Notes under the pieces: model-generated
Seen by the model: the letters and a program-made list of their open reading frames with translations, nothing else
Database searches by the model: none
Told to the model about the DNA's origin: nothing
Made by a program: the position numbers and the translations under genes
Shown here: positions 15,184 through 61,620 of the stretch, piece after piece
Position numbering within the stretch: position 1 is the first letter of the stretch
Layout: the number at the start of each line of letters is the position of its first letter
Assembly: GCA_921293015.1 (NCBI GenBank)
Contig: OV121084.1
Location: 20,960,960-21,024,959 of the forward strand
DNA: 64,000 bases
Direction: 5' to 3'
DNA from: Phorcus lineatus
Taxonomy: Eukaryota; Mollusca; Gastropoda; Trochida; Trochidae

Positions 15184-15297
15184 TCACGTTGTTTAAACTT
15201 TTGAGCTTTTGACTGTTCAAGTGGTGAGTTTTTAATCAAATTAGCGCTTTTTGTGTATGCTTAGTTTGATTTTGTAAGGGCATAAGTCAACAGCAAG

Positions 15298-18310: not shown

Positions 18311-18314
18311 TCAG

Positions 18315-24545: not shown

Positions 24546-24550
24546 CAGAT

Positions 24551-24940
24551 ATGCGTGGCAATGGTAATTACAATGATAAAGGTGGCTCTGTCAAGTTGAC
24601 CAATGATACTTGCCATGAACAGCAAGGTTCAATGAGTCATCAAGGTCAAGATTCTAAGGTCACAACAATGTCATCTACACAGTGTCACATGACAGACCTT
24701 GTGTCATTGCGCACTGTTACTGTTGTCTTGAAAAATTGGACCAAACGGATAGTTGTTAATGCATTGTTAGACGATGCAAGTACACAAACTTATATCAACG
24801 AGGATGTGTCTTCACATTTAGTTTTGATTGGTGAAAAACAGACGGTCTCTGTAAATGTGCTCATTGGTCAAAGTTCTCTTCACAATGTGTTCAGTTTGGT
24901 ATTGAGAGTTCAGACGGCGTTGTTGTTCAATGCTTCATAA
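24551..24940 (+). pseudogene. BEL/Pao aspartic protease fragment
   Basis: 'VVNALLDDASTQTYINEDV' contains the DDAST-type active site loop of BEL/Pao proteases (peptidase family A17). The ORF closes soon after the first lobe ('VLIGQSS'). It is followed in another frame by 'KFWEVEKFKSDG' (24930-25124), the linker before RT. Confidence 0.8.
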
Positions 24941-25139
24941 GTTCTGGGAAGTAGAAAAGTTTAAGTCTGATGGTCCAAATTTCACTAAACAAGATGAGTC
25001 AGTCCTTTCTTTGGTACAAGATACAATCAAGTATGAAAATGACAGGTATGAAATTGGCATACCATGGAAGACTAATCCACAGTCTCTCCCACAAAACTAT
25101 GAAATGACCTATAAATGCCTATGAAGTACTTAAAAAAAG

Positions 25140-25987: not shown

Positions 25988-26145
25988 GGGTGAGTTGGTG
26001 AGGTGAGTTGTTGTTTAACTCCACTTTCAAGATTATTTCACTTATTTCGCGGCTGCTAGTATTAGTGATGGGAGAAAGCCTGCAACACTATTGTGACTAT
26101 GCATTGCGGTGAAACCTGCTGGCATCGCCTGGAACTAGCGAACCA
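25988..26145 (+). mobile_element. SINE-like retroposon inserted in BEL/Pao pol
   Basis: The sequence 'gtgagttgttgtttaactcc' and 'actttcaagattatttca' through 'cctgctggcatcgcctgg' interrupts the pol frames and shares its head with the 55-bp insert at 5460. Flanks 'ccatgggg' and 'ccatgggt' may be a short target duplication. The pol residues on the two sides are not contiguous, so a deletion also occurred. Confidence 0.6.
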
Positions 26146-26630
26146 TGGGTGGTACTACACTGAATTTCAGTGTAGCATTGCACCCAAACCTGACTGCGTG
26201 TAGAACAGTTCTCTACTGCAGACAAAGTTGCCGAGATGTTACAAGTAGCTTTGTTGCATCCAAGCATAGGATTGCTCCTTTGAAGTCTGTTTCGATTTCT
26301 CGACTTGAGTTAATGGCTGCAGTGCTTGGAGGTAGATTACTGCTCACTGTTGATCATGCACTAGAGGTAGGGATTTCATCAGCAATTCTGTGGACTGACA
26401 GTTTGAATGTTTTATGCTGAATATCCAATCATAGTCGCTATTTCAAAACTTTCAAAGCAAATCGCATCGGATTCATCCAGGAAAATACCGAACCATCACA
26501 GTGGAAACATGTACCTACTGATCTCAATGCTGCAGATATACTTACCAGAGGCACAGCAGTTTCAAACTTGACATCAGATATCTGGAAATGTGGTCCGAGT
26601 TTTCTTAAGCTGAAAGAAAGTGATTGACCA
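26145..26630 (+). pseudogene. BEL/Pao RNase H-like fragment
   Basis: 'FVASKHRIAPLKSVSISRLE' and 'LMAAVLGGRLL', then 'SSAILWTDSLNVL', match the conserved BEL RNase H block. After a stop at 26418 a further reading continues 'QWKHVPTDLNAADILTRG', a hallmark of the region before integrase. The N-terminal residues of RNase H are missing. Confidence 0.85.
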
Positions 26631-26639
26631 GAACAGTTA

Positions 26640-28233
26640 GTGAAGTTAGAGTCAAGGAATATGACTGAATCAAAACAAATAAAAGAAACTCGGTCTTTGG
26701 TTACATACACAAATTCAGTTTGCTTGTTCGAACCTTCACCTTTTTCAAGCTGGAACAAGCTTGTTCGAATTACGGCCTGGGTGCAAAGTGTTTTCAACAT
26801 TTCCTCCAATTCTACTAAAAGAATGACTGGTTGTCTTTCGGCTGAAGAAATTCTTGATGCTGAAACTCACATCATATGTTCAATGCAAAAGGAAGTCTTT
26901 CTGATGAGTACCATGCACTAAAAGCTTCCAATCCATTGGCTAAAAGTAGCAAACTTGTAGAGTTGAATCCTTTCATCTACGATGACGGTATGATTAGATC
27001 AAGTGGTAGACTTGAGCGTGCAGAGTTTTTGCCATTCAAAACAAGATTTCCTATCATCTTACCAAGAAAAAACTGGGTCACAAAGTTGATTGTCAAAAAA
27101 CATCACGACGATGGGAACAAATCAGTTGCTGTCAACACTGTCTTCACGTTTTTGTATCATAGCTGGTCGTGAAGAAATTTGGGAATGGGAACATGAATGT
27201 GCATATTGTCGACGTGGAAAAGCAAAAACCAGCAACACAGGTCATGGCTCCACTCCCAAAAGTCCGTTTGAGATGTTCTCTTCGTGCCTTTGATCAAACT
27301 GGAATAGACTTTGCAGGCCCATTCCTTACAATTCAGGGTCGAGGAAAGTCAAGAAATAAAGGTTATCTTTGCCGCTTCATCTGTTTGGCAACCAGGGCTG
27401 TTCATCTTAATTAGGCTTATGGTCTTGATACAGATTCTTTCCTGAATGCTTTCTACAGAATGACAAGCAGACGGGGATTGCCATCAGATATGATATCTGA
27501 CAATGGTGTCAATTTTGTTGGGCAGCAAATGAATTGAAACAGCTTGTTGAGAATTTAGACTTGCATAAAGTACAATCTTCTTTGGCAAACCGGGGTGTTC
27601 GATGGTTGTTCAACCCTCCTCGTGCTCCACATTTCGGTGGTGTGTTTGAGTCGATGATAAAGTCTGCTAAGAGAGCTATTTTTGCAGTTCTTGGATCTGA
27701 TGACTTAACAGATGAAGAACTTATGACTGCCTTTGTTGATGCAGAAGGTCTTATCAATTCGCTTCCTCTTACTTATCAGAGTGCACATCCTGTGGATAAC
27801 GTTCCCTTAACACCTAATCATTTCCTACATGGCCAGAGTGGAGGAAGTTTTGCACCTGATTCGGTCGATGAAACTGTTTTCAGTCCAAGGAAGCGATGGA
27901 GAAGGGTACAAGAACTTGTACGTCACGTGTGGAGGTGATGGATGAAGGAGTGGTTACCATCTCTACAAGAGAGAGAAGTGGTTCGTTCCCAGTAGAGATT
28001 TACCAGTTGACGACGTGGTAATTGTCATTTCGCCTGATGCTCCACGTGGTACATGGAACCTCGGTGTCATCATCAAAACATATCCAGGTTCTGATGGACA
28101 TGTTAGCCTAGTGGACATCAAAACTGAAAAGACCATTTTGACAAGGCCAGTGTCTAAAGTATGTCCCCTCGAAGTTTCGACGATAAAGACAGATAAAGAA
28201 GAACAGTACAGCGGCACAAGACAGATGGACTAG
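26640..28233 (+). pseudogene. BEL/Pao integrase with C-terminal domain
   Basis: In overlapping frames: 'GMIRSSGRLERAEFLPF' and 'LIVKKHH' (damaged zinc-binding region), then core Asp in '[14 protein letters not shown]' (about 27290), '[10 protein letters not shown]' and a stop, '[15 protein letters not shown]' (second Asp, about 27500) and 'GGVFESMIKSAKRAIF' (Glu, about 27640-27680). The C-terminal 'WFVPSRDLPVDDVVIVISPD' and 'APRGTWNLGVI' (about 27975-28070) is the small domain closing BEL/Pao pol. Several frameshifts inactivate it. Confidence 0.9.
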
Positions 28234-30429: not shown

Positions 30430-30503
30430 ATATAAGTGACCGTTAGCATGTTATAGACAGAGTGATAAGTAGCCTTACATAAACAAAGACATTATTGAAA
30501 GTT
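30430..30503. repeat. Tandem repeat unit upstream of the LINE insertion
   Basis: The order 'catgatataagtgacc', 'ttagcatgttatagacag' and 'attattgaaagtt' matches the units at 32518-32840. The LINE at 30504-32517 therefore split a pre-existing tandem array. Confidence 0.7.
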
Positions 30504-32441
30504 ACTTACTTTAATTTTGGTCCGTCAGTACGTAAATGGATTAGAATACTGTACGAAAACTCTGAATCATGTGTATTAGTCAACGGTTTCGCAAGTTCCT
30601 TTTTCAAGCTTAGTCGGAGCTGTCGCCAAGGGGACCCAATTTCACCATATATTTTTATCATATGTACCGAAATATTAACCAGATTGATTAAGGGTAATAA
30701 ACTTATCAAGGGGATAAAGATTGGTACCATTGAACATCTTCTAGCTCAGTTTGCAGACGACACATCTATGATGCTGGATGGCACAAAAACTTGTCTACAA
30801 GCAGTTATAAACACTCTGAACATGTTTGAACGTTTTTCAGGACTACGAGTAAATATTGATAAAACAAAGTTGATTTGGATTGGTTCGAAAAAACGCTGTC
30901 GAATGAAACTTTTACAGGACAGTAAAATGGATTGGACTGAAACTTTTAAACTATTGGGTATAAAATTTGACACTCATCTTGAAAATATGGTTGATCTTAA
31001 TTATAATGATAAATTTAAAGAAATAGAAAATTCGATGCATCTCTGGAAAAGTAGAATCCTGACACCATTTGGACGTAATACAGTATTGAAATCACTATTC
31101 TTGCCAAAATTGAATCATTTGTTTTCTACTCTCCCAGCACCATCTGAAGATATTATACAATCCTTTCAAACTAACTGCTTTAGATTTATTTGGAACGAAA
31201 AGCCAGATAAGATTAAAAGAGACCGAGTAACGAGTAATATTCCAGATGGAGGTTTTAAGGTTCCAATTATAAAAGATATCATTGCTTCACAGAAAATTTC
31301 CTGGCTTCGCCGTATACAACTCTCAGATACTGCTTTTAAAACAATTCTTATGGAAGCGAAGATTGTTCCACCAACTTTTTTGGAAAAAGATGCAAAATAT
31401 ATCAAAGACCATATTATAGATACCATAAGAAACCCTTTCTGGCGGGAGGTGTTATCATGTTGGAGTACCTTCTTGGATACATATAAGAAAACACGAAAGG
31501 ATGCCTATTCCCAATTCTTATGGTATAATGACAATTTACAGGTTGATAATAAATACATTTACATTAGGAACTGGGAAGAAGCGGGAATAAGATATATCAA
31601 TGATTTGGTAGATAATGAAGGCAAACTCCTCTTTCACGAACAATTCATGAATATATATAATATTTCCTGTAATTTTTTAACGTACTACGGTGTGTATAAA
31701 GCCGTAGATGCGTATCTAAAAACTCTAGAATCCGATGAAAATACCCCTTTGATGTCCCCAATACTCCCTTTCAACCACTCCTTACTCATTAATAACCAAA
31801 AGGGATCAAAATATTATTATAATGTTTTATTACTATCAAAATTTCAGAGGACATCGGCCAATCAGCAATGGGAAACTGACATCACTAATTTCACTGATCA
31901 AGAATGGAGAAATATAAATGAAATTCCCTTTCGAGCTACTGATAGTGTGCAATTGCGTTGGCTTCAGTATAGAATCATTAACCAAATCCTGCCTGTTAGT
32001 AAATATCTCTTTAAGATAGGCTATAAGAATTCTCCTTTATGTACAAGCTGTTACGGCTCTGATGCTGATATATGTCATGTATTATGGAATTGTGAACATG
32101 CTCACTCTCTCTGGAATGAAGTTGAAAACTGTATAAATACGCAGGCGGAAATAAATATCTCCTTCACTAAGAGAAATGTTCTTCTAGGTTTTCTTTCAAA
32201 AAGTAATGATCCATTAAATGCAATATGTCTTGTGATTAAAGATGTTATTTTCAGAAGTTACCTTAATAAGAGGACATTATCATTTACGCACATTCAGAGA
32301 GAGTTGGCAAATTACTATAATGTAACAAAAACTATAGCCTTTTCTAATTGTAACCCTAACAAATTTGTAAAATTCTGGTCTAGTTGTCATAACTTGTTCA
32401 TTGACCATTCCGAATCAACTGTGCTGTTCAGTGTTTCGTGA
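30504..32441 (+). CDS. Tx1-like LINE ORF2 C-terminal part (RT palm to zf-RVT)
   Basis: The frame is open for about 645 codons from the insertion edge to a TGA. It begins at 'YFNFGPSVRKWIRILY', just past the first catalytic block. It then shows 'SRSCRQGDPISPYIFIICTE' and 'LLAQFADDTSMML' with the two catalytic Asp (about 30748-30765). 'RVNIDKTKLIWIG' and 'FKLLGIKFD' are the next RT motifs. The long C-terminal region includes 'GGFKVPIIKDIIASQKISWL' and ends with zinc-binding 'SPLCTSC' and 'CHVLWNCEHAHSLW' (about 32030-32115). Endonuclease, ORF1 and the first RT motifs are missing, and there is no native start codon, so it is a dead but well-preserved fragment. Confidence 0.92.
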   Translation, partial: TYFNFGPSVRKWIRILYENSESCVLVNGFASSFFKLSRSCRQGDPISPYIFIICTEILTRLIKGNKLIKGIKIGTIEHLLAQFADDTSMMLDGTKTCLQAVINTLNMFERFSGLRVNIDKTKLIWIGSKKRCRMKLLQDSKMDWTETFKLLGIKFDTHLENMVDLNYNDKFKEIENSMHLWKSRILTPFGRNTVLKSLFLPKLNHLFSTLPAPSEDIIQSFQTNCFRFIWNEKPDKIKRDRVTSNIPDGGFKVPIIKDIIASQKISWLRRIQLSDTAFKTILMEAKIVPPTFLEKDAKYIKDHIIDTIRNPFWREVLSCWSTFLDTYKKTRKDAYSQFLWYNDNLQVDNKYIYIRNWEEAGIRYINDLVDNEGKLLFHEQFMNIYNISCNFLTYYGVYKAVDAYLKTLESDENTPLMSPILPFNHSLLINNQKGSKYYYNVLLLSKFQRTSANQQWETDITNFTDQEWRNINEIPFRATDSVQLRWLQYRIINQILPVSKYLFKIGYKNSPLCTSCYGSDADICHVLWNCEHAHSLWNEVENCINTQAEINISFTKRNVLLGFLSKSNDPLNAICLVIKDVIFRSYLNKRTLSFTHIQRELANYYNVTKTIAFSNCNPNKFVKFWSSCHNLFIDHSESTVLFSVS

Positions 32442-35575: not shown

Positions 35576-36594
35576 TTCAACATTACTTAAAAACCAATAG
35601 GCTTATTGCACCCAATCAATCAGGATACAGAAAGTCGTATAGCACAACTGATAACTTAGTAAGACTACAACACTCAATAAGAGAAGCACAGCACAACAAA
35701 AAATACACAGTTGCAGTCTTTCTAGATTTCAGCAAAGCATTTGACAGGCTTAATACAAAAAGTTAAAAAAGAGTATAAAAGGCCAAATGCTCAACTTCAT
35801 CAATGACTTTATGTCAGATAGAAACTTCTGCCCTAAAACAGAAGACATAGTATCAGATAATTATGATCTAGAAAATGGAACCCCACAGGGTAGCATAATA
35901 TCTCCAACACTCTTTAATATCATGATAGACGGTCTCTTTAGCAAAACACCAAAGCAAGTAAACACATCACAATTTGCTGATGAGGGAGCCCTCTGGGTCA
36001 GTCATAAACATCAACATGTAGCAGCGGAACAACTACAAAAAGCACTAGATAAAGTAAATCAATGGACCCAAGATTGGGGATTTACATTATCAACCAGTAA
36101 AACATTATCAATCCTCTTTAAACCTTCACCAAAGGCTGATTGCCGACCAGTTAAACTATATATTAATGAGGAAAAATTAGACCAAGTGACACAAGTTAAA
36201 TTCCTGGGCATTATCTTTGATGAATGCCTAACATAAAACCAAAACATTAATGAACTAGCACAAAGATGTAAAAAAGACCTTAATATACTAAAACTGCTCT
36301 CACACACCAGATGGAGCAGTGGTAAAGAAATGCTACTTGTTTTATATAAATCACTTATAAAATCTAAACTACATTATGGAGCTGAAGCCTGGTACGACAC
36401 CAGCAAAACCAATGTACAAAAGCTAATTAGTATACAAAACCAAGCTTATAAACTCATAACGGTTTGCCTCAGTGGCACACCAATGGACTTAGTAAGACAT
36501 GAGCTAGGGGAACTCCCCCTAGAACAAGAATGGGAAGAAAACATTACAAACTACATTGTAAGATCCCAACACAAATCTTGTTTAAGGGAATCTT
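35576..36594 (+). pseudogene. I/Nimb-like LINE reverse transcriptase
   Basis: 'RLIAPNQSGYRKSYSTTDNL', 'VAVFLDFSKAFDRL' (first catalytic Asp), then after a stop and frameshift near 35765 'LENGTPQGSIISPTLFNIMI' and 'TSQFADEGALWV'. The catalytic pair reads D-E instead of D-D. 'FTLSTSKTLSILF', 'VKFLGIIFDECLT', a stop, and the thumb 'LLVLYKSLIKSKLHYGAEAW' follow in frame. At least three stops or frameshifts plus the Asp-to-Glu change make it inactive. Confidence 0.9.
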
Positions 36595-36839
36595 AACCAA
36601 TAAAAAACAAGCACTTAATAAACAAGCCAAACAAATACCACCACCATTCGGGGAAACTGTCAAAAACACATAGACAAACATGAGCTTGAAGAATTTGACA
36701 TATCAACTGACCCTTATACATGTCATATTCTCAAACCACCTTACATACCAGACATCCAAGTAGATGTAAAATTAACACAACTTATAGATAAAAGCAATCC
36801 CAACCCAAGTGATCTCATTAACACCCAAGCTTATATTGA

Positions 36840-37305
36840 TCTGAATTATAACCAAAGTGATTATATACAAATATTCACAGACGGCCCCAAAGATGATAAA
36901 GGTCAAGTGGGGTCAGGAATAGCCTTCACACACACGGGGGATCAAGTAATAGCCTTCAAACTGCCAAACAAAGTATCAATTTTTACTGCTGAACTAACAG
37001 CAATCTTACAAGGCCTTAAGCTCTGCATTGGGTATGAAAACAGAAATATAGCCTTATTTACTGATTCACTCAGTTCATTACAAGCAATACAGAATAAAAC
37101 AGATAAAAATCGACATGAATTACTAAACCAAATATACTATCTATACAATTATCTATTAAAGGATAATAACCAAATCAGCTTCATCTGGGTACCATCACAT
37201 ATAGGACTTCTTGGAAACGAACGAGCAGACCAGGCTGCCAAAGCCGGTCTCACACACAACCACGAGGTTGATATACCTTATACCGTAAAGGAAATAAAAG
37301 CATAA
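36840..37305 (+). pseudogene. LINE-encoded RNase H domain
   Basis: The frame keeps the classical RNase H I residues: Asp in 'IQIFTDGPKDD', Glu in 'SIFTAELTAILQGL', Asp in 'ALFTDSLSSLQAI' and Asp in 'GNERADQAAKAG', with 'FIWVPSHIGLLGN' between. All four catalytic positions look intact although the flanking ORF is broken. RNase H downstream of RT places the LINE in the I superfamily (I, Nimb, Ingi and relatives). Confidence 0.92.
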
Positions 37306-42964: not shown

Positions 42965-44498
42965 AACTAGTGCTCAAAAGAAAGTATACAGCTGTTTGAT
43001 TGGGCATAAAATGTAAACAAATAAAGGTATTTGTGAAAAAGTTATTTATTCTTATAAAGTGTTCACTTTTACGCTAGAGTATGGTACATACAGTTGTTTG
43101 TCCATATAACAGAACATTCAATATTCAATCGAAGATCATTGGTGTCAAATTGTAAATTTACACATGGACAGAGATCACATCAAGTGTCATTCATCTTGCA
43201 CAAGAGACCAATACCGAACTCAATAGCGTATATGACCTCCATTGGCAATAATACAGGCCATAACCCGTCGACGCATTGATGACGTCAGGCGGCGAAGGCG
43301 GTCAGGGGTGATCCTTTACCATTCCTGTTGGAGATATCGTTCCAGTTCTTGAACTGTCATAGGCGGCACTGGTAGTCTTCTTACTTGTCTATCCAGGTGG
43401 TCCCACATGTGCTTAATCGGATTCATGTCGGGAGAGCATGCTGGCCATGGTAAAACAACAATATTAGCATTGTGCAAGAAGTCGTTTGTCAGTCTGGCGG
43501 GGTGAGGACGTGCATTGTCATGTTGGAAAACGTTGCGTCTTTGCTGTTGGTGGATGAATGGAACGGCGACTGGTTGTAAAACTTCATCCCTGTATCTCCG
43601 AGCATTCATGTTGCCATGAATAACGACTAGCCTGGTCTTCGTATCCCGGCAGATCACACCCCTAACCATCCCGCTACCGCCTCCAAATGCTCGCACTTGC
43701 TGAACGCAATTGGGCGCCATACGTTCGCCAACTCGCCTGTACACCCGTCTCGGCCATCATTTCTGCATAGGCAAAACCGATTCTCATCAGTAAACATCAC
43801 AAGTGACCGGTCAATCACGCCCCTTCCACCGTCGAACCCGCCTGGCCCACATCAGTCAACGGCGTCGGTTTTGAAGGGTGAGAAGTACTCCACAATAGGG
43901 TCGACGTGCTCGAATGCCGTATTGCCGTAGTCTACGGTACACAGTGTGTCGACTGATACGATGACCTAACGCCGTAGCAGCCGTTGACGTCGCCGTAACC
44001 AACCGGTTTCTCAGGGGGATAGTCCGTATGTGTCGGTCTTCGGCGGGGGTTGTGACGCGTGGTCGACCGCTCCTAGGCCTGTCAGATGTGCTGCCTGTCT
44101 GCCTTAAGCGTTGCATCTATGTCACGACAGTTGCTCTAGTGCAGCCGAAGGTTCTGGCAATGGCAGTGTTCGTCGCTCCTTGTTCTGACATTTCGACAGC
44201 TCTCTCTCTTTCAATCTGACTCAAACGTGGCATACTTTTGGTGTTTTTCTTACTACAGTACCCCTAACGCTTCGCTTTGGCTGTTTTATACAGTACATGT
44301 GTACGTGCATTTTGTGCTACATGAGATTATGTCATTTTTCGATCTCAAGCAACGTTCGTGCGATTTGTATTTTTTGTTGCCGCAAATAATGGGTCTACAT
44401 GTATGTCAAATAGCTCAATATGAATCATTTGTTAATTACTAAGTTTAGAAGATATTTTTGTATTTTCATGGGTGTAAACTTTCTTTTGAGCACTAGTT
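42965..44498 (-). mobile_element. Tc1-like DNA transposon with TA duplication
   Basis: Ends 'aactagtgctcaaaagaaag' and its complement 'ctttcttttgagcactagtt' form the TIRs, with TA at 42963-42964 and 44499-44500. The 1,534-bp length fits Tc1. The transposase gene is on the minus strand and broken. Confidence 0.93.
43222..44235 (-). pseudogene. Tc1-like transposase (DD34E type, catalytic Glu replaced by Lys)
   Basis: Starts 'MPRLSQIERERAVEMSEQGA' (first helix-turn-helix) and hits a stop after about 38 codons. It continues 'DRPRSGRPRVTTPAEDRHIR' (second HTH and GRPR-type hook), then 'VMFTDENRFCL' with the first catalytic Asp in a shifted frame. An open 142-codon frame (43744-43316) has 'FQHDNARPHPARLTNDFL' (second Asp) and 'CSPDMNPIKHMWDHL', where the third catalytic residue, 34 residues on, is Lys instead of Glu. 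A stop replaces a residue near 43312, before the C-terminal 'RLRRLTSSMRRRVMACI'. It would cut and paste the element in the nucleus if intact. Sense mutations and stops show it is dead. Confidence 0.92.
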
Positions 44499-50807: not shown

Positions 50808-51023
50808 TGTGGTAAAACTGAGTTTCTCAGTAGTACTTACGTATTTCCATACGAATTTCCACTCGCTTATATATTCGGTTACGTTGGTTTATGCAGTTAT
50901 CCTAGATCCGTTAGTCAGTTAGTCAGTCAGTCAGTCCGGCATGGTTTAGTCGCCATGTTTTTAGTTGCTAGTCGGAGTCGTATGCTAGGAGTTCTCCGAT
51001 TGGATAGGTGTCGGGATTGCTGG

Positions 51024-51072
51024 CCAATCACCGGTCTCCTTACATTGCTCAACCTATAATCGTGTATATAAG
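51024..51072 (+). promoter_or_regulatory. Gypsy LTR core promoter (CCAAT and TATA)
   Basis: CCAAT at 51024-51028 and TATATAAG at 51065-51072. Transcription probably starts about 25-30 bases later, near 'tcattcaggcagttcattc'. The same elements are at +8335 in the 3' LTR. Confidence 0.65.
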
Positions 51073-51192
51073 CGACGTGCTATCAATCATTCAGGCAGTT
51101 CATTCGAATAGCGCCTATTCGGAGGTGAGAGCTCCCTCTTGCCAACTTGTTCTGCACCAGGACAATGTTAACATAATTATTATTGATATCTA

Positions 51193-51198
51193 AATAAA
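51193..51198 (+). terminator. LTR polyadenylation signal AATAAA
   Basis: AATAAA about 100 bases after the predicted start, followed by 'gagtattttctgttagg'. The functional copy for full-length RNA is the equivalent at 59528-59533. R would then be only about 110-120 bases, leaving a U5 of about 1.3 kb. Confidence 0.6.
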
Positions 51199-51459
51199 GA
51201 GTATTTTCTGTTAGGTAAGGTTAGACGGGGTGGGTAGATTCGGGGAATTTAGTCGACGCTTCGAGTCTATGCACCTTGTATGTTATTCTAGAAAGATTAG
51301 TGGGTAGGAACAAATAGGATGTAGGGTAATAGAATAGTTTAGACAATTTAAGACATAAGTTTAACTGCAATACTGTGGTGAAATATAATCACTACAATTT
51401 CTGACATGGAGGCATTTGTATGATGTGAGCCGTGTCTGGTCGTAGTATATTTCAGTGTA

Positions 51460-51718
51460 AGGTCAAGGTCAGTTACGGTAGCAGCTTTGTTATGTTGTGA
51501 GCCGTGTCTGGTCGTAGTACATTTCAGTGTAAGGTCAAGGTCAGTTACGGTAGACGTTTTGTTTTGTTGTGAGCCGTGATAGGACTGTTAGCTCTTTCTT
51601 GTAGTGAATTATGTTTACTACCGTTTCAGTTTGATGAACGCGTAGCATCTTTTAGGGTGTGACAACAGTTTGCAGTCATTGTAGTAAATTATTATTATTT
51701 GCTGCAAGGTCAGGGTCA
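51460..51718 (+). promoter_or_regulatory. Three AGGTCA direct-repeat motifs in the LTR
   Basis: AGGTCAAGGTCA at 51460-51471 and 51532-51543, and AGGTCAGGGTCA at 51707-51718. These are tandem nuclear-receptor half-sites with no spacer; TCAAGGTCA is also an extended half-site of the ERR/SF-1 kind. They lie downstream of the predicted start and two are in a tandem repeat, so a regulatory role is only a possibility. Confidence 0.35.
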
Positions 51719-52510
51719 GGTTATGGACTATGTAGCTTTCTTGGTGACATACTAAGTTGTGAAATATTGCATTTATAATATCTTCGTAAGTGCTTTCCGT
51801 TGTATGGAGATTTTGTGGCTGTTGCACTTCTTCAATGTAACTAAGTGAGATTGTAAACACTGAGTGATATATTTTTGTATTTATTCCCTCTTTGAGGTAA
51901 TTACGGGTGTTTAGCAAACACTATTATTGTAGTATACACTTTGATGTTTACACTTCTTTGATATTACCAGGTGCTATTGATAGTTTGTACATCTTTATAT
52001 TTTGCACTTGTCGTTTATAAGTGCTACCGTTGTCAGGGAATATATCATTGACCTTTACCCTTGTTGAAACTTACCCGGTGCTATTGATAGTTTGTACAAC
52101 TCTATATTCTGCACTTGTTGTTTATAAGTGCTATCTTTTGTCAGGGCATATATTATTGATAATTTACCCTTGTTGAAACTTACCTAGGTGCTATTTTAGG
52201 GAGTGCTAGTTATCGCTAGGGCCGTTCAAAATCCACCTTTAGTTATTGAGGAAAGCTGAATTGTCTAGAAGGAGTCGCGAAGTGTTTTGACCATTATTAC
52301 ACTATTCTATCGTTTTTGTTATTAAATAAACTTCTTGTTGGATCCACATCACTTGTCTGTTTTTCATCCCGCTTCATGTCTGGAAAGAACTCGGGGGTTA
52401 ATAGAGCGAGTTTGGCCAATGTCTGTTAACATCTTTCCCCTAAAAAAACTACACAACGCAAAGTCCCTATTGACGAATGTACAATGGCCGAACTCGCACT
52501 ATTACAGATT

Positions 52511-52528
52511 TGGTGCCGTGACCCGGAT
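52511..52528 (+). other. Primer binding site, tRNA-His type
   Basis: 'tggtgccgtgacccggat' begins 4 bases after the 5' LTR. It is complementary to the 3' end of animal tRNA-His (ending ...TCACGGCACCA) apart from one position, as I recall that tRNA. Confidence 0.75.
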
Positions 52529-52660
52529 GAAGTGTGTTGATGATGGTCAGTGGTAGCGTAGTCTCGGATGAGGAGTGTGTTGATGATGGTCAGTGGTAGC
52601 GTAGTCTCGGATGAAGTGTGTTGATGATGGTCAGTGGTAGTGTATTCTCAGATGATAGTT
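52524..52660 (+). repeat. Leader tandem repeat, three copies of 41-43 bp
   Basis: Each unit reads 'ggatgaagtgtgttgatgat' then 'ggtcagtggtagcgtagtct', starting within the primer site and filling most of the leader. It might be involved in packaging or translation; that is speculation. Confidence 0.85.
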
Positions 52661-52753
52661 GATAGCCTTTATTTGGTAGTTTGTGCTAGTTGTCTATTTC
52701 GCTGATAGTCATAGTTGGTCTAACTTTTCTGGTCTTAAAGCCTACACGGATCT

Positions 52754-54127
52754 GTGTCAGATTCTAACATGGCTATGTCTAACTTAGATTTGCTTTCTGT
52801 AAGTCCCCATTCTAGAGATTATGAGCTTTTATCTAGTGAGGATGAAGGTTTCAGTAGGTTGTTTTTGTCTCCTCGAGGTTGGATAAAGGAAGAAGTTGAA
52901 GGTTCCTCTACCCCTAAACGTGATGCCACTACTTCTGTTGATCCTGAGGATTTAGGTATTCAGACTCCTGGTAGTATGGATGTAGGTTTTCTCGATAAGA
53001 GTGGTCCAGGGCATAGTGCTACTTCCCGTCATTCTTCGCCGAAGGGTGCTAGACCAAAACTAAGACAGGATACTCCTCATGTTGGTAGTGGCAGGGCTAA
53101 TAAGGTGAAATTTTGTCCAGAGTTAGATACCGAGTTCTCGTTGGCGGAAAGTAGTTACGTGGAGTTGCCTTCCCGGGATAGTTATAAGTTACAGAGGTCG
53201 CCTTTCGATATGTCTGGTTATGAGGTTAGAGGCAATGCTAGGGCCACAGGGGGACATCAAAGTGGAGTAGTGCCTACTTCATCTGGCGTTGATAGACCAA
53301 GGCCAAAGGTTTCTAGAAGGGAGAGACAACCTGATCCATTTGATGGGAAGAGTAGTGAATGGCAGGACTATGTTATCCATTTTGAGCAGGTAGCTTCTTG
53401 GAATGGTTGGACAGAGGCCGAGAAGGCTCAACAGTTGTCTATGAGTTTACGAGGTACAGCTCAGAAACTTTTGAGTAATCTCACATATGGTCAGTTGTCA
53501 GATTATCATGTTATCAAATCAGTGTTAAGTCAGAGGTTTAATCCTAAGGAGCGCTCAGTGGCCTATAGGTGCGAGTATCGGAATAAACGTCAGGGTAGGG
53601 ATGAAACTGCGGCCGATTATGGGTATCAGTTGAGGAGGTTAGCATTATCAGCTTATCCTGAGGTGCCTTTTCCATCATTAGAGTTACAGGTTATTGATCA
53701 GTTTGTGTCCGGGCTCTCAAACTTCGAAATGAAGAAAAAGGTTACCTTTAGTCATCCTAACACTTTAGAGGAAGCTATTGCTTCAGCTGTTGAGTTCGAA
53801 GCTCTCGAAGGTAGTCGGAGTAGGAAGCCGCATGAGTCTCAGTTTGCTCAGGTTAATGTAGTTAGCACACCAGCAGTCTCTTGTGAGCAATCTCCGAGTC
53901 CTTCTGTTTCGGAAATAGTTACTCAGTTTTCCAAGTTGATAGATGATAAGCTGTCAAAGTTTAAACAGGAGTTGCAACAGGGAAAGTCAAGTTCTGTAGG
54001 CCCCAATGAGTGTTTCTATTGTAGGCTTGAGGGACACAGGATAATTTCATGTCCGACTCGTCTTGCGAGGCATAATCGGCTAAAAGATGCAGGGGTTGTC
54101 GATGATGTTAGCAAACAGGGAAACTAG
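52754..54127 (+). CDS. gag: Gypsy Gag polyprotein
   Basis: An intact 457-codon frame. The N-terminal 190 residues are polar and probably matrix-like. A Retrotrans_gag-type capsid region spans about 200-330 ('PDPFDGKSSEWQDYVIHFEQ', 'LSMSLRGTAQKLLSNL', 'DYGYQLRRLALSAYP'). A single CCHC knuckle (C420-x2-C423-x4-H428-x4-C433, 'CFYCRLEGHRIISC') binds RNA. The alternative start 27 bases upstream of other in-frame Met codons is not needed; this is the first ATG in frame after the leader. The stop TAG lies directly after a slippery heptamer used to make Gag-Pol. Gag assembles the cytoplasmic particle in which reverse transcription occurs. Confidence 0.96.
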   Translation: MSDSNMAMSNLDLLSVSPHSRDYELLSSEDEGFSRLFLSPRGWIKEEVEGSSTPKRDATTSVDPEDLGIQTPGSMDVGFLDKSGPGHSATSRHSSPKGARPKLRQDTPHVGSGRANKVKFCPELDTEFSLAESSYVELPSRDSYKLQRSPFDMSGYEVRGNARATGGHQSGVVPTSSGVDRPRPKVSRRERQPDPFDGKSSEWQDYVIHFEQVASWNGWTEAEKAQQLSMSLRGTAQKLLSNLTYGQLSDYHVIKSVLSQRFNPKERSVAYRCEYRNKRQGRDETAADYGYQLRRLALSAYPEVPFPSLELQVIDQFVSGLSNFEMKKKVTFSHPNTLEEAIASAVEFEALEGSRSRKPHESQFAQVNVVSTPAVSCEQSPSPSVSEIVTQFSKLIDDKLSKFKQELQQGKSSSVGPNECFYCRLEGHRIISCPTRLARHNRLKDAGVVDDVSKQGN

Positions 54128-57100
54128 ATCAGGCTGAGATCGAGGCCAAGACCTCAGCCTGTGAGTCGTCAATGTTTCCAGAAGTAGGCCAACAGGATGA
54201 TGAGCATTCGTCCAAGGGCACTGTTCATGGTAGTGTTAGTTCTCTGAAACACAAGGTGGTTAGACTCAGGGTAGGTGGTGTCAACATGGACCAAGGTTGT
54301 TTATATTTAGACGCAGAAATTGCTTCCGGGCGGAATAACATGTTAATTGACACAGGTTCCCCTATCTCGTTCCTGAGGTATGAAGATTTTGTTAGACTTG
54401 GCTTTGAGGTAACCTCCCTTGAATCAGTGGACATGACTCTTTTGTCTGTAGACGGGAAGCAGTTGAGCTTGTACGGGAAATTTTCGTTGGACTTTAGAGT
54501 TAAGCATTTTCGTTTTACTCATGACTTTGTAGTTGCTGAGTTAGAGCAGGTTCCTGGAATTTTAGGTATGGATTTCCTAGAGGCAAATGATGCTGACATT
54601 TTTGTCCGACGTCAAATGCTTGATCTTCCCGAGGGTAGAGTGCAGTTGTTCAAGTTTCAGAGTTACACCTGTTCTAGAATTAGACTCATGGAGAAAACTA
54701 AGGTGCCAGCACAATCTGAGATGTTCATAGAGTGTAAGGCTGATAAGGTACTTTCGGGCCGCTGTGGACTTGTAGAACCCAACTCAACGTGGCGAAAGCA
54801 GGGTTTGTTGGTAGCGAAAGCTCTAGTCGATCCGCAACTGGATAAAATAGTGGTGTCGGTTCTTAACCTTAGCAATAAAGGTATTACCTTAGGGTCAGAT
54901 TCCGTCCTGGGTACTGTCAATACCGTAGATAAGGTGGTGGCTGAGGAGACTGAGTGTCGAGTACCTCGATTGCCTGTCGACTTACCTCCGCAGTTGCAGA
55001 AATTAGTTGATGATAGCTCTGTCGAACTTACTTCCAATCAGAGACATGAGGTGGCTTCTTTAGTTAGTGAGTTTGGAGATGTCTTTGTTGGGGAGGACGG
55101 AATAATTGGTCAAACCGAGATTGTCACACATAACATAGAGACAGGGGATTCCAAACCTATAAAGTTGCCATGTCGTAGGGCCCCTCTTGCCCGAAAGAAA
55201 GTTGTTGAGGAGGAGGTAGACAAGATGTTAGCCCAGGGTATAATAGAGCCCAGCGAAAGTCCATGGTCTGCTCCTGTTTGTCTAGTTGAGAAAAAGGATG
55301 GAAGTGTACGCTTTTGTGTTGATTTTCGTCGGCTCAACGAAGTCACGATTCGTGATGCGTATCCTCTTCCCAGAATAGACGAGTTGCTAGAAACATTAGG
55401 TGGCGCTAAGTGGTTCTCGACTCTGGATTTGGCAAGTGGCTATTGGCAGGTTAAGATGACCCAAAAAGATAAGCATAAAACCGCATTCACCACTCACATG
55501 GGTTTATTTCATTTTAACGTTATGCCTTTTGGTTTGACCAATGCTCCTGCCACGTTTGAGCGGTTGATGGATAGGGTGTTAGGGTCTTTACGTTGGAAGA
55601 AGTGTTTGTGCTACCTCGATGATGTGATTGTTTTTGGTCACGACTTCTCGTCTGCTCTCCTAAACCTTAGGCTTGTCTTTCTACAACTCCGGTCGGCTAA
55701 GTTGAAGCTAAAGCCGAAGAAGTGCTCGTTGTTTCAGAATAAAGTAGTGTATTTGGGTCATGTCGTGTCGAAGGAGGGTTTGGCTTGCGATCCTAGTAAA
55801 ACCGAGGCTGTGAGCACATGGCCAAGACCCACAGATAGTACTGAGATCCGTAGCTTCCTTGGGTTAGTTGGTTATTATCGGCACTTTGTCCCCAACTTCT
55901 CTGAGATAGCATTTCCTCTGGTACGACTTACTAGGAAGAAGGTGTCTTTCCGTTGGAGTAATGATTGTGAGCAGGCATTTACCAGGTTGAAAGAGTGTTT
56001 GTTAACCTCTCCAATACTAGCTTTTCCTAACAGTTCAGGTAGCTATGTTCTCGATACCGATGCTAGCGCAAACGGGATAGGAGCTGTGTTATCACAGGTG
56101 CAGGATGGACGTGAAGTAGTCATAGCCTATGGGAGTAAAGTTCTGAATAGGGCTCAGCAAAACTACTGTACTACTCGTCGAGAACTGTTCGCAGTTGTTC
56201 ATTTTCTTAGGCACTTTAGACACTATCTTTTCGGACAGAAGTTCTTGTTGCGGACCGATCATGCTCCTTTAATCTGGCTTAAAAACTTCAAGGATCCAGA
56301 GGGAATGTTAGCCAGGTGGTTGAGCGTTATCGAGACATATGACTTTAGCATCCAATATCGCCCTGGGGTTAAGCATCGTAATGCTGATGGCATGTCTAGG
56401 AGGGTGGTTCGAAAGTGTAGCAATGAGTCTTGTGAGGATTGTTTTGTCCCTCGAAGTGTTCAGTCTTGTGTAGATAAGGCCCAAGAGAGCTATGAACAGC
56501 TCTTTGACTCTCAGAATCCCTCTTTTGTATGTCCCGTTGTGGTTAGTCCGGCAGATACCGAGGAGATTGGACAGGATAGCTCGGATACACTTCCGAATTG
56601 GCTTGATGCATGGTCTAACAGGGAGATGGTAGAATTGCAGGAGAAAGATAGTCATGTTGGTCCTGTGCTTAAGAGAATGTTGGAATCTGCCACCAAACCC
56701 TTAAAGACGGAGGTTATTGAATTTAGCGCAGAGTCTAAAAGTTTGTGGGGACAGTGGGACCAGTTAGTTATTAAGGACAATTTACTCTTCCGTAGGCATC
56801 AGTCTGACAAGGGCACACTTTTTCAGTTGTTAGCTCCTGTAGCCATAAGAAACACCATCTTTGAGCATCTCCATAGACAGCGTACCGCTGGTCATTTTGG
56901 TAGGGACAGGACATATGAGGCTATTAGACAGAGATTTTATTGGCCAGGAATGTCAGAGACTGTTAAACGTTGGTGTCAAACTTGCGATTTGTGTGCAAGA
57001 TGTAAACCAGGTCCTGGTCATGGGAAATCACCGTTACGTCAGTTCCAAGTTAGAGCTCCTCTGGACTGTGTTGGCATAGACATAGTTGGTCCTCTACCAG

Positions 57101-58098
57101 TTACTAGGCATGGTAATGAGTATATCATAGTTCTTGGTGATTACTACACAAAATGGAAGGAGGCCTTTGCTGTCAAGGACCATACTGCTCTTACGGTCGC
57201 TGACAAGATCGTCACTGAGGTCTTTTGTAGGTTAGGGTGTCCGCGGCAGATCCACACGGATCAGGGGCGTGAGTTTGAGTCCGCTCTTTTTCGGGAAGTT
57301 TGTAATCTCTTAGGTATCCACAAAACTCGAACCACTCCTTACCACCCTCAATCTGACGGTCTGGTAGAACGATTCAATCGCACGTTACGTCAGATGCTGT
57401 CAGTCTTTGTAGATCAAGAGAAACTAGATTGGGATGATCAATTACCTTTTCTCATGATGGCTTACAGGGCAGGGGTCCATAAGAGTACCAGTTGTACACC
57501 AAACCTTCTTATGTTAGGGAGGGAAGTTCAGTGTCCGTTGGATGTTATGGTGGGTGCCCCGCCAAATAATGACTCCCTGATGTGCCCAGTAGAGTATGTC
57601 AATTGGTTACAACAGTCCATGCAGGATAACTTTGAGTTTGCAAATCAGCACTTGCAGGTAGCCGCCCAGACTCAAAAAAGGAATTATGACACCAAATTAC
57701 GGATCAGATCTTACGATGTTGGCAGTTGGGTGTGGCGTTGGTATCCGCCAACTGCAGGGAAAAAGTTAGGTTTAGGATGGACAGGGCCATTTCTAGTGGT
57801 GGAGAAACTCACTTCGTTAGTCTATAGGATTCAGAAGGGTGAGGGGACTAGGGTCTTCAGTGTCCATGTTGATCAACTTAAACCCTACGAGGGTGAGCAG
57901 TTTCCAGAGAGCTGGCTTGGGCTTGCAGTTCAATCTTTTCCGGAGCCTAGGGAAGAAGTTGACGAGGTTTTTGACACAAATCAGAGTAGAGGCGAGGTAG
58001 ATGAAGATAGGGTCTTGGACAATGAGGAAACCTTGTGCAGGTTTTCGAGAAGCAGATATGGGAGGGTTGTACGCCCTAGGGAAATCTACTCCCCATAA
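54110..58098 (+). CDS. pol: Gypsy Pol polyprotein (protease, RT, RNase H, integrase)
   Basis: An open frame of about 1,330 codons, in -1 phase to gag; the first ATG is at 54172 and residue numbers count from it. Protease: 'LIDTGSPISFL' (Asp60). RT: 'VCLVEKKDGSVRFCVDFRRL', 'LDLASGYWQV', 'GLTNAPATFERLMD' and the active site 'CYLDDVIVFG' (Asp483, Asp484). RNase H: 'LDTDASANGIGAVLSQ' (Asp630). Integrase: H-x-H-type zinc region about 898-945 ('HLHRQRTAGHFGRD', 'WCQTCDLCARCK'), then DD35E core Asp970 ('GIDIVGPLP'), Asp1030 ('IHTDQGREFE'), Glu1066 ('DGLVERFNRTL'). The C-terminus ends 'SVHVDQLKPYEG' plus an acidic tail; I see no chromodomain. Every catalytic residue is present and no stop interrupts it. 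It is translated by frameshifting from gag. Confidence 0.97.
54118..54161 (+). promoter_or_regulatory. Programmed -1 ribosomal frameshift signal
   Basis: The heptamer G_GGA_AAC (54118-54124, gag frame) is followed at once by the gag stop TAG. After a 5-base spacer comes a perfect 9-bp stem, CAGGCTGAG (54130-54138) and CTCAGCCTG (54153-54161), with a 14-base loop. Slipping back one base enters the pol frame, which is open from about 54110. This is the canonical retroviral type of signal. Confidence 0.92.
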
Positions 58099-58203
58099 GT
58101 TGGAGAAATAGACGTTGAACTGCGTGTAAATACTTTAGTTATTTTGTAAACAAATTTTAGTTTTGTTTCTTGACATTGACCTTACAAGTACTTCAGTTTC
58201 AGC

Positions 58204-58680
58204 ATGGAGTTAGAGATATATGACCAGGAATTTCGAAAATTCCAAGAAGAGCATCTGCGGGAGGCCTGGCCGACGGAGGGGATGAAGTGCCGGGTGTCCA
58301 GTTGCGGCGGCAGATGGTACGCAACCCTGAGGTCCTATCAGCAGCACTGGACCCGGGTGCACAAGCCGGAGACCAGGCTCTTTCTCTGTTCTCACTGCAG
58401 GACCGCCTTTAAGACCCGTGTCCGGGTGAAGAGACACCTGAAGACTCACCGTACTCCAGGGACTTACAGTGAGGAGACCCGAAGGAACAGGGAGTACATC
58501 GACCCCGGGGACGTCCTGCCACCTTCAGTGGACCGTACTGACCAGTTGGTCGAGAGGGAGGTAGCTCGCCAGCAGGAACAGGATCGTCGCCATAGTCTTC
58601 CTAGCCGGAGGAAGAGTCGAGAGGAGGAGAACAGGGACGAGATGCTGTGGCTGGAGGGAGAGGTGTCTGGAACTGATTAA
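58204..58680 (+). CDS. Gypsy ORF3: two C2H2 zinc fingers, unknown function
   Basis: A 158-codon frame in the position where some Gypsy elements carry env. An acidic N-terminus precedes finger 1 (C29-x4-C34-x13-H48-x4-H53) and a canonical finger 2 (C62-x2-C65-x12-H78-x3-H82; 'CSHCRTAFKTRVRVKRHLKT'). The tail from 85 on is highly charged and Arg/Glu-rich and may form a coiled or disordered region. The coding sequence is visibly GC-richer than gag and pol, with different codon habit, suggesting a separate origin. The ATG follows 'cttcagtttcag', which could be a 3' splice site, so a spliced subgenomic mRNA is plausible. No signal peptide or membrane segment is seen, so it is not an envelope protein. 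It may bind nucleic acid or tether the element; I do not recognise a named family. Confidence 0.85.
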   Translation: MELEIYDQEFRKFQEEHLREAWPTEGMKCRVSSCGGRWYATLRSYQQHWTRVHKPETRLFLCSHCRTAFKTRVRVKRHLKTHRTPGTYSEETRRNREYIDPGDVLPPSVDRTDQLVEREVARQQEQDRRHSLPSRRKSREEENRDEMLWLEGEVSGTD

Positions 58681-59130
58681 GGAATATGTTTTGTTATGAT
58701 TTGTTATATTATTTATATGTCAGATTTTGCCATTTTTGTGTGATAACTGGTAGTTATTATAAGGATATATTATGTTGCTTTGGTCATGCAAACAGAACAA
58801 TCAGCTTAAGGCATTTTTAAGCACTTCTTTCATAATATAGTTTTAATATTAGATAGGTTTGTTTTTTTTACAGGAATTTATTGAAGTAACCTTGCGTATG
58901 GTGTTTCGAGCCCCTAAACCAAATAGCAATAATTGTTATAGAATAAATATCTTTTACAGTTAATTCTTATCTACACATTATAAACAGTTATTTTCTTATT
59001 GAATACGTAATTCGATACAATTTACCCTTGTTTATATTGCAAGAAAATCTCCGAATTTCGAAAACACGTGACGCTCGGAAACAGGTAACACAGTATATTT
59101 TTGATAAAGTTAGGAGTAACTTTAATCTGT
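58681..59130 (+). other. Gypsy 3' untranslated region
   Basis: AT-rich, no ORF, between ORF3 and the polypurine tract. Confidence 0.7.
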
Positions 59131-59140
59131 AGGGGGGAGG
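59131..59140 (+). other. Polypurine tract
   Basis: 'aggggggagg' lies two bases ahead of the 3' LTR and would prime plus-strand synthesis. Confidence 0.85.
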
Positions 59141-59142
59141 TA

Positions 59143-60841
59143 TGTGGTAAAACTGAGTTTCTCAGTAGTACTTACGTATTTCCATACGAATTTCCACTCG
59201 CTTATATATTCGGTTACGTTGGTTTATGCAGTTATCCTAGATCCGTTAGTCAGTTAGTCAGTCAGTCAGTCCGGCATGGTTTAGTCGCCATGTTTTTAGT
59301 TGCTAGTCGGAGTCGTATGCTAGGAGTTCTCCGATTGGATAGGTGTCGGGATTGCTGGCCAATCACCGGTCTCCTTACATTGCTCAACCTATAATCGTGT
59401 ATATAAGCGACGTGCTATCAATCATTCAGGCAGTTCATTCGAATAGCGCCTATTCGGAGGTGAGAGCTCCCTCTTGCCAACTTGTTCTGCACCAGGACAA
59501 TGTTAACATAATTATTATTGATATCTAAATAAAGAGTATTTTCTGTTAGGTAAGGTTAGACGGGGTGGGTAGATTCGGGGAATTTAGTCGACGCTTCGAG
59601 TCTATGCACCTTGTATGTTATTCTAGAAAGATTAGTGGGTAGGAACAAATAGGATGTAGGGTAATAGAATAGTTTAGACAATTTAAGACATAAGTTTAAC
59701 TGCAATACTGTGGTGAAATATAATCACTACAATTTCTGACATGGAGGCATTTGTATGATGTGAGCCGTGTCTGGTCGTAGTATATTTCAGTGTAAGGTCA
59801 AGGTCAGTTACGGTAGCAGCTTTGTTATGTTGTGAGCCGTGTCTGGTCGTAGTACATTTCAGTGTAAGGTCAAGGTCAGTTACGGTAGACGTTTTGTTTT
59901 GTTGTGAGCCGTGATAGGACTGTTAGCTCTTTCTTGTAGTGAATTATGTTTACTACCGTTTCAGTTTGATGAACGCGTAGCATCTTTTAGGGTGTGACAA
60001 CAGTTTGCAGTCATTGTAGTAAATTATTATTATTTGCTGCAAGGTCAGGGTCAGGTTATGGACTATGTAGCTTTCTTGGTGACATACTAAGTTGTGAAAT
60101 ATTGCATTTATAATATCTTCGTAAGTGCTTTCCGTTGTATGGAGATTTTGTGGCTGTTGCACTTCTTCAATGTAACTAAGTGAGATTGTAAACACTGAGT
60201 GATATATTTTTGTATTTATTCCCTCTTTGAGGTAATTACGGGTGCTTAGCAAACACTATTATTGTAGTATACACTTTGATGTTTACACTTCTTTGATATT
60301 ACCAGGTGCTATTGATAGTTTGTACATCTTTATATTTTGCACTTGTCGTTTATAAGTGCTACCGTTGTCAGGGAATATATCATTGACCTTTACCCTTGTT
60401 GAAACTTACCCGGTGCTATTGATAGTTTGTACAACTCTATATTCTGCACTTGTTGTTTATAAGTGCTATCTTTTGTCAGGGCATATATTATTGATAATTT
60501 ACCCTTGTTGAAACTTACCTAGGTGCTATTTTAGGGAGTGCTAGTTATCGCTAGGGCCGTTCAAAATCCACCTTTAGTTATTGAGGAAAGCTGAATTGTC
60601 TAGAAGGAGTCGCGAAGTGTTTTGACCATTATTACACTATTCTATCGTTTTTGTTATTAAATAAACTTCTTGTTGGATCCACATCACTTGTCTGTTTTTC
60701 ATCCCGCTTCATGTCTGGAAAGAACTCGGGGGTTAATAGAGCGAGTTTGGCCAATGTCTGTTAACATCTTTCCCCTAAAAAAACTACACAACGCAAAGTC
60801 CCTATTGACGAATGTACAATGGCCGAACTCGCACTATTACA
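59143..60841 (+). repeat. 3' LTR of the Gypsy element
   Basis: The same length as the 5' LTR (1,699 bp). I found one substitution, at 60245. TATA is at 59400-59407 and AATAAA at 59528-59533. Confidence 0.97.
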
Positions 60842-61160: not shown

Positions 61161-61620
61161 TAGTTAGTGATTAACAGATCTGATGGTCCAATGGGGACAA
61201 GTTTTCTCAGACAATATCACACTTATGTATGTGAATGAAATTTTGGTTTTGTACACACCTGTTGATGCTCTTGATTGAGTTCGAAAGCCATTTCCTCAAT
61301 GTCATATTTGACAGACTTATGGCCCTTGATTGCGCAATTGGACTTATAGTGATTAATAGATCGGTTGCTCCGATCTGTTAATCACTACAAGTCAAATTGT
61401 TGCGCAATTGGACTTATAGTGATTAATAGATCGGTTGCTCCGATCTGTTAATCACTACAAGTCAAATTGCGCATTCATAACTTTGCTCCAAGAGTATCAT
61501 CAGGTGTATCCAAAACCAAAATGTCACTCCTCTAGGTGTAATAGTTTCTGAGAAAATCTGTCCCCATTGGAGCAACAGATCTGTTAATCGCTCCATGTCC
61601 AATTGAGCAATCAAGGTTAT
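61161..61620. repeat. Large imperfect palindrome with tandemly duplicated hairpin
   Basis: Outer arms 61161-61330 and 61475-61620 pair ('gattaacagatctg', 'ccaatggggaca', 'ttttctcaga'). The centre is a 70-bp hairpin unit present twice in tandem (61331-61400 and 61401-61470), each with 'gcgcaattggacttatagtg' and 'cactacaagtcaaattg'. It interrupts the LINE endonuclease. It is probably a foldback or MITE-type element. Confidence 0.85.

Follow-up and report, generated by a model that had tools for sequence, protein, structure and literature searches.

Several LTR retrotransposons carry genes in addition to gag and pol. In Caenorhabditis elegans, the Cer1 element encodes CERV, a nuclear protein made from a spliced mRNA, and experiments have demonstrated that this extra protein is needed for export of the element RNA (PMC10309623). 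LTR retrotransposons of bdelloid rotifers are described as having an ORF3 beside gag and pol that is typically expressed from spliced messages and is common to element lineages (PMC5408684), and plant LTR retrotransposons as having an accessory ORF (aORF) between pol and the 3′ LTR that is kept in most family copies (PMC7264820). Gypsy elements of the Drosophila MDG1 group contain two small accessory ORFs, sORF1 and sORF2, for which a role or localization has been shown (subnuclear for sORF1), and in some Lepidoptera sORF2 is located downstream of pol (PMC11952523).

Here, we describe a Gypsy-type element of the gastropod Phorcus lineatus with a third ORF (ORF3) for a protein with two C2H2 zinc fingers. 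The element lies at positions 50808–60841 of the window, i.e. the whole 64,000-nt stretch of DNA that was analysed, and is a single, intact copy. We consider it fairly probable that ORF3 is a genuine, anciently acquired third gene of one Gypsy clade, which would be expressed from a spliced mRNA and whose product would be a nuclear protein binding the element's own nucleic acid.

Structure of the element and of the ORF3 product

The features of the element are listed in Table 1. Both LTRs begin with TG and end with CA, and the pair is bordered by the target-site duplication GTAA, as is characteristic of Ty3/Gypsy ends. The two LTRs differ by a single substitution (T at 51910 and C at 60245), which agrees with the very young age assigned to the element in an earlier, sequence-only reading. 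In Pfam, the protease (PR), reverse transcriptase (RT), RNase H, and integrase domains appear in the Gypsy order, and gag precedes pol, which is the gene order of Ty3/Gypsy elements. The primer-binding-site-like stretch is presumably of the tRNA-His type. At least 5,162 pol relatives reach E ≤ 1e-20 among the 7,981 database proteins scored; the nearest of those scored are 66 and 63% identical in the RT–integrase region, and named relatives include proteins of Pinctada imbricata (57%) and Pecten maximus (61% over half). Two Gypsy pol proteins (P0007 and P0038) are filed under Candidatus Thiodiazotropha MAGs, perhaps owing to contamination from an animal host.

Other repeats are present in and around the element: LTR-internal tandem duplications at 51412–51578 and 51941–52138 (spacing of 72 and 107 nt, respectively), a short leader segment repeated in tandem between the primer-binding site and gag (52524–52659), and a perfect 70-nt tandem duplicate just 3′ of the element (61330–61469). 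Elsewhere in the window, the ORFs at 15286–18917 have, by eye, a DIRS-type appearance (gag, RT, and tyrosine recombinase), and the segments at 24458–27938, 30483–32441, 35754–37305, and 43316–43756 (minus) resemble, by eye, remnants of BEL/Pao, LINE, and Tc1/mariner elements.

Table 1. Features of the Gypsy-type element and its immediate flanks (window positions)
Feature	Position	Strand	Remarks
5′ target-site duplication GTAA	50804..50807	.	flank of 5′ LTR
5′ LTR, 1,699 bp, TG..CA	50808..52506	+	one substitution relative to 3′ LTR
Primer-binding-site-like stretch, adjoining 5′ LTR	52511..52528	+	sequence
gag ORF, CCHC knuckle (by eye)	52769..54127	+	Pfam Retrotrans_gag, 23.2 bits (cut-off 24.1)
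pol ORF, PR–RT–RNase H–integrase, frame differs from gag	54112..58098	+	ORF list, Pfam
A+T-rich spacer, ATG-free; candidate 3′ splice site with its end at 58202 (weak in window copy)	58099..58203	+	
ORF3, two-finger C2H2 protein, 158 aa, DPGDVLPP and RRHSLPSRRKS motifs	58204..58680	+	
Finger 1, C-x4-C-x13-H-x4-H, residues 29–53	58288..58362	+	
Finger 2, C-x2-C-x12-H-x3-H, residues 62–82	58387..58449	+	
Polypurine tract AGGGGGGAGG	59131..59140	+	upstream of 3′ LTR
3′ LTR, 1,699 bp	59143..60841	+	one substitution relative to 5′ LTR
3′ target-site duplication GTAA	60842..60845	.	flank of 3′ LTR

The intact 158-codon ORF (ATG to TAA) that the sequence-only reading had placed between pol and the 3′ LTR is indeed present; it starts 105 nt past the pol stop codon, with no intervening ATG, and ends 462 nt before the 3′ LTR. 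ORFs of this length arose in none of 5,000 Markov sequences with the composition of ORF3 and in none of 5,000 with that of the spacer. The two fingers were likewise recovered as proposed, one unusual (C29-x4-C34-x13-H48-x4-H53) and one canonical (C62-x2-C65-x12-H78-x3-H82), and all four cysteines of the protein occupy zinc-ligand positions, as assigned by pattern. Both fingers follow the C2H2 family consensus (C-x2-4-C-x12-H-x3-5-H, with a hydrophobic core), finger 1 having one extra residue. The strict two-finger pattern was absent from 200,000 shuffles of the ORF3 residues, nine of which contained a single finger. The Pfam family zf-C2H2_4 matched ORF3 with an E-value of 1.5e-5 and 25.7 bits, slightly below the curated cut-off of 27, and a profile of 12 ORF3 sequences matched solved C2H2 arrays (PRDM9 and Zif268; best E 2e-11). 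AlphaFold models from single sequences, structure prediction having been proposed as a check in the sequence-only reading, were of low confidence (pLDDT 48 and 51).

Charged residues account for 59 of the 158 positions, and the finger region (residues 27–84) contains 15 K/R and one D/E. The RRHS and RRKS sites of the Arg-rich tail are of a kind that we take to fit basophilic kinases. The fingers, the basic finger region, and the tail with these sites argue for a nuclear, nucleic acid-binding protein. Neither an env family in Pfam nor membrane character was found in ORF3, as would be expected of a membrane glycoprotein, and an env remnant was therefore rejected.

No relative of ORF3 was found at E ≤ 10 among 5.8 billion database proteins, of which 12 candidates shared words with it, so the gene is demonstrated in one genome only. 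Scans of IMG/VR with ORF3, integrase, a pol profile, and an ORF3 profile returned no relative; ORF3 had no match in phage records, Rfam gave no match, and NCBIfam and PHROGs gave weak matches only.

Distribution and selection of ORF3 in the Phorcus lineatus genome

The genome (957.8 Mb in 74 contigs) was searched with ORF3 and pol, and 150 of 215 ORF3 candidates and 112 of 1,415 pol candidates were scored. At least 68 ORF3 matches were identified among the scored candidates. They include a copy on contig C9 with an ORF3 identical to that of the window (three mismatches in 3,474 nt), a copy on contig C17 with 83% identity in ORF3, many further matches that are approximately 30–40% identical and free of internal stops, and many decayed copies. 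Pol was present upstream, within 1.5 kb and on the same strand, in 25 of the 30 ORF3 loci returned, and a similar polypurine tract lies approximately 100–460 nt 3′ of ORF3 in six of nine loci tested, including the window copy. When the two lists of scored candidates were matched by position, an ORF3 match was found within 4 kb downstream of 38 of the 51 listed pol places with at least 52% identity, versus none of the 58 less similar places. Thirteen of the 51 close places have no listed ORF3; the pol match ends before the end of integrase in 12 of them, and ORF3 remnants adjoin two (L063 and L068). The census, the polypurine tract, and the upstream pol identify ORF3 as the third gene of one Gypsy clade. 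The search for related elements suggested in the sequence-only reading has thus turned up ORF3 in many relatives, and the gene is neither private to the window copy nor a fragment absent from its family, which were outcomes that would have spoken against that reading. Being present in the majority of copies (38 of the 51 listed) and under selection, it has the properties of a conserved aORF.

Trees of integrase and ORF3 (FastTree) contain the same terminal subclades; the L022/L023 group is placed differently, with a support of 0.33 in the ORF3 tree and 0.99 in the integrase tree. The elements of this genome cluster apart (support 0.82) from 19 database relatives. ORF3 was acquired before the subfamilies of the clade split, has been kept by selection, and has been inherited together with pol.

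Conservation was assessed in an alignment of the window copy and 11 relatives (32–83% identical) chosen for largely open frames, from which L010 (identical), L013–L016, L024, L025, L027–L031, and six of the seven loci L032–L038 were left out. Of the zinc ligands, C29, C34, H48, C62, C65, and H78 are invariant and H53 and H82 are conserved in at least 90% of the rows; R19, W49, G102, and P107 are also invariant, and G26, M27, D100, and P101 reach at least 90%; the DPG motif is conserved to the same degree. At E ≤ 0.1, zf-C2H2_4 is matched by only five of the 12 rows. One young subfamily includes eight copies whose ORF3 proteins are identical, and six of these copies differ from L034 by two to three nucleotides in ORF3.

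The dN/dS ratios (NG86) of the six closest ORF3 pairs are 0.097, 0.109, 0.117, 0.182, 0.252, and 0.143, i.e. approximately 0.10–0.25 and far from the value near 1 that the sequence-only reading had regarded as fatal to its proposal. Summed over six subfamily pairs, a subset of the ten computed, the differences at codon positions 1, 2, and 3 number 77, 71, and 185, respectively (333 in total; p 7.6e-17), and the third-position excess has p < 0.05 in nine of the ten pairs (exception, L044/L045; p 0.24). Judging from these substitution patterns, ORF3 is under purifying selection. In five of the six closest pairs, the pol dN/dS is 0.24–0.74, based on few changes, and the dS of ORF3 is several-fold that of pol in the same pairs; the absolute ratios are therefore unsafe. 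A useless host fragment, captured and still carried because the elements are young, would agree with the age of the window copy (1 of 1,699 LTR sites differs) and with the abundance of decayed copies among the scored candidates, but the open frames and zinc ligands kept over deep subfamilies, together with the third-position excess, make it very improbable.

The high dS is part of a wider pattern. Pol sequences differ by 1–5% at the nucleotide level versus 2–16% in the spacer, in ORF3, and in 400 nt of following sequence, mostly a 2.5- to 4-fold step, in the pairs L009/L011, L022/L023, L018/L026, L044/L045, and L044/L046, and the rise starts in approximately the last 200–350 nt of pol. There are two exceptions: L018/L020, in which divergence in the 400 nt past ORF3 does not exceed that of pol, and the L044 pairs, whose sequences become nearly identical again after these 400 nt. 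The likeliest explanation is recombination, by which pol cassettes would pass between elements whose 3′ modules are older, generating mosaic elements, and greater mutability of the GC-rich ORF3 may add to the divergence. This peculiarity weakens the absolute dN/dS values, but not the third-position excess.

Between subfamilies, ORF3 is 32–47% identical to that of the window, versus approximately 59–75% for the integrase of the same elements. Such quick amino acid change would suit a factor that counters silencing or immunity, i.e. host piRNAs or zinc-finger repressors, as would the sister-clade C2H2 ORFs, for which no relation to ORF3 was detected (see below). This role is nevertheless rather unlikely, as no excess of amino acid change is seen and purifying selection prevails.

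Origin of ORF3 and C2H2 ORFs of sister clades

As the sequence-only reading had stated, ORF3 is richer in GC than the rest of the element: its GC content is 0.577 versus 0.457 in pol, and its GC3 is 0.696, whereas pol has 0.447 and gag 0.367 (z 5.8 and 8.3 relative to synonymous expectation). The GC-rich segment (58257–58670) nearly coincides with ORF3, and no other 420-nt stretch of the window is as rich in GC. The inference of capture that had been drawn from this composition fails, since all 12 relatives measured are GC-rich as well; in the window copy and these 12, the GC content of ORF3 is 0.51–0.60 and its GC3 is 0.50–0.70, versus 0.35–0.47 in the pol end. The composition thus predates the subfamily split and does not date a capture to the window copy, and a recent capture deduced from GC content was rejected. 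A direct repeat flanking ORF3, GAATTTCGAAAA (58228 and 59053), was also rejected as an insertion scar, as 104 of 1,000 simulated sequences reach it.

Thirty ORF3 hits do not lie beside a listed pol place, and five of these were fetched. Pol is present upstream in L081 and L082, L085 has one weak match on the opposite strand, and no pol was found in the 2.5 kb of L084. At L083 (C17:47839800–47842400, minus strand), no match to the pol of the window, the only query used, was found within 9.1 kb. L083 encodes two ORF3-homologous modules that lie in different frames; both contain a first finger bearing an HW pair, plus a second finger and the motif IDPGN. When L083 was left out of the ORF3 profile, its modules scored 61.5 and 29.8 bits; the highest score among 2,000 shuffles was 8.6 bits, and five C2H2 ORFs of sister clades reached ≤8.4 bits for the best domain. 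The last module is preceded by an acceptor-like site (ttgtttcag), has an AATAAA signal approximately 30 nt past its stop codon, and shows a strong codon-position bias, with GC contents of 0.54, 0.31, and 0.75 at the three positions. L083 has the appearance of a host gene, apparently containing introns, that either supplied ORF3 or arose by domestication of it.

The source of ORF3 is probably a host C2H2 exon module like that at C17:47.84 Mb, the two tandem modules and the GC3 of 0.75 in the last one being what an older host gene acting as donor would show. The reverse direction, in which L083 was domesticated from ORF3 and ORF3 itself had another origin, bears on origin and not on function; we regard it as a serious, if lesser, possibility. 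It can draw on the same arrangement of L083 (two modules whose frames differ, a poly(A) signal and an acceptor-like site, with pol undetected in 9.1 kb) and on the core tree, in which the two modules do not form a joint outgroup and which is uninformative on direction, but only one pol-less locus of this kind is found among the five fetched of 30 hits. The idea of capture as such is therefore upheld in part: the genome contains a pol-less homologue that is apparently interrupted by an intron, and transfer may have run either way.

Twelve stretches of 2.5–3.0 kb downstream of less similar pol sequences were read with one uniform finger pattern. A C2H2 ORF with one or two fingers was found in the sense orientation in six of them and in the antisense orientation in none; the six belong to the eight stretches with a pol identity of 42–48%, and none of the four with 33–40% contains one. 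As background, the remaining 54 kb of the window, without the element, contain no such finger segment in sense and two in antisense orientation. The six loci, each with its ORF a short way past pol, are L079, L072, L073, L069, L070, and L075, L069 and L070 being near-copies. The clearest is L079, with two fingers (Pfam E 3.4e-8) and an ATG right behind tttatgatag; L073 has a Pfam E-value of 2.3e-4, L070 a weak Pfam match, and L072 none, and L072 and L073 are 50% identical. In the acceptor test described below, four sister loci gave a Fisher p of 0.048 (L070 was left out as a near-copy of L069, and L079 was scored apart, 0.098). Homology of these ORFs to ORF3 was rejected, as hhalign of the 12-row ORF3 alignment against L072/L073 gave a probability of 1.3, five of these ORFs reached ≤10.7 bits against the ORF3 profile, and no relation beyond the finger was detected; weak, finger-only tblastn matches of ORF3 were found in L075 (E 0.003–0.005). 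The C2H2 genes of the sister clades reflect either several acquisitions or one early acquisition followed by divergence past recognition. In eight distant relatives from prokaryote assemblies (L001–L008; 34–43% best-segment pol identity), no C2H2 pattern was found in ORFs of at least 60 aa downstream of pol, three of the eight having less than 420 nt of sequence there.

A bolder and less probable reading is that a broad Gypsy lineage of this genome habitually carries a spliced C2H2 third gene, which would have been gained repeatedly from finger genes of the host and used as a DNA- or RNA-binding regulator, forming a counterpart of the host zinc-finger repressors that has been turned to the benefit of the element.

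Expression, function, and comparison with known systems

Splice acceptors were scored with a rough matrix, and the top-scoring one in the 60 nt preceding each ATG was taken. Its distance from the ATG is 0–32 nt in all 16 ORF3-clade loci, and in 13 of the 16 the acceptor beats 90% of the background windows; the three exceptions, for which background windows were as good in the given proportion, are the window copy (72%), L041 (24%), and L021 (15%). The excess is significant over 11 chosen representatives (Fisher p 1.2e-6; L020, L021, L045, L065, and L067 were left out as near-relatives). The site proposed in the sequence-only reading, at about 58202, is weak in the window copy (score −1.31; 128th among the 595 internal AGs), and the internal acceptor with the highest score in this element, at 58400, falls inside ORF3; the proposal gains its support from the 13 related loci. 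Good-scoring candidate donors are present in the LTR at 51125 and 51215. With acceptor-like sites preceding the ATG in relatives, ORF3 is most likely made from a spliced, env-like mRNA.

The proposed mechanism would proceed as follows. A donor in the LTR or leader would be joined to an acceptor just 5′ of the ORF3 ATG, as for retroviral env, yielding a subgenomic mRNA. Its product would be a small protein that combines a pair of C2H2 fingers, of which finger 1 is of an expanded C-x4-C type, with a DPG motif and, at the C-terminus, a charged tail rich in Arg. This protein would enter the nucleus and bind LTR DNA or genomic RNA, thereby promoting expression or export. Binding of the element's own DNA or RNA in this way appears to be the most likely role, ahead of integration tethering and anti-silencing; the sequence-only reading had named integration, transcription, and silencing escape as processes that such a protein could steer.

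As an integration-targeting factor, ORF3 would tether integrase through fingers that bind target DNA or a chromatin protein. The ORF3 profile matches DNA-binding C2H2 arrays (PRDM9 and Zif268), and the gene is kept beside the integrase end of pol. There is also a precedent for finger-guided integration in R2 retrotransposons, which are guided to their target by N-terminal fingers. Two fingers confer little specificity, and we consider this role unlikely. For the preferred role in expression or export of the element's own nucleic acid, CERV of Cer1 is the nearest precedent for how ORF3 could work.

Extra genes in LTR elements are thus already known, and a C2H2 finger protein as the third gene of such an element was not met in the largely open-access literature covered here, Repbase being outside its scope. 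The R2 non-LTR retrotransposons have N-terminal C2H2 fingers that serve their own mobility; the likeness lies in the use of fingers for the mobility of a retroelement, but in R2 they are part of the RT protein, and the element belongs to an unrelated class. Plant aORFs are env-like or antisense and mostly of unknown origin, with no C2H2 finger protein mentioned in the part of the source covered here (PMC7264820). The ORF3s of bdelloid rotifers encode env, GDSL esterase, DEDDy exonuclease, coiled-coil, or transmembrane proteins, and the main text of the report refers to neither zinc nor C2H2 (PMC5408684). Unlike ORF3, the MDG1 sORFs lie upstream of gag and encode HTH-like or transmembrane proteins, with no splicing seen and no zinc fingers in the published account (PMC11952523). 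Cer1 resembles the present element in being an LTR element with a non-env extra protein from a spliced mRNA, as we infer for ORF3; compared by its description, CERV differs in its size (517 aa), in its five exons, some of which are in the gag frame, and in its possible finger, which is of the C4 and not of the C2H2 type (PMC10309623). With a gene conserved throughout a clade, and with a candidate homologue of it in the host genome, the idea that retrotransposons capture and employ host regulators can be tested directly, and the ORF3 elements would join Cer1 of C. elegans as a place to study the regulatory genes of Gypsy-type elements.
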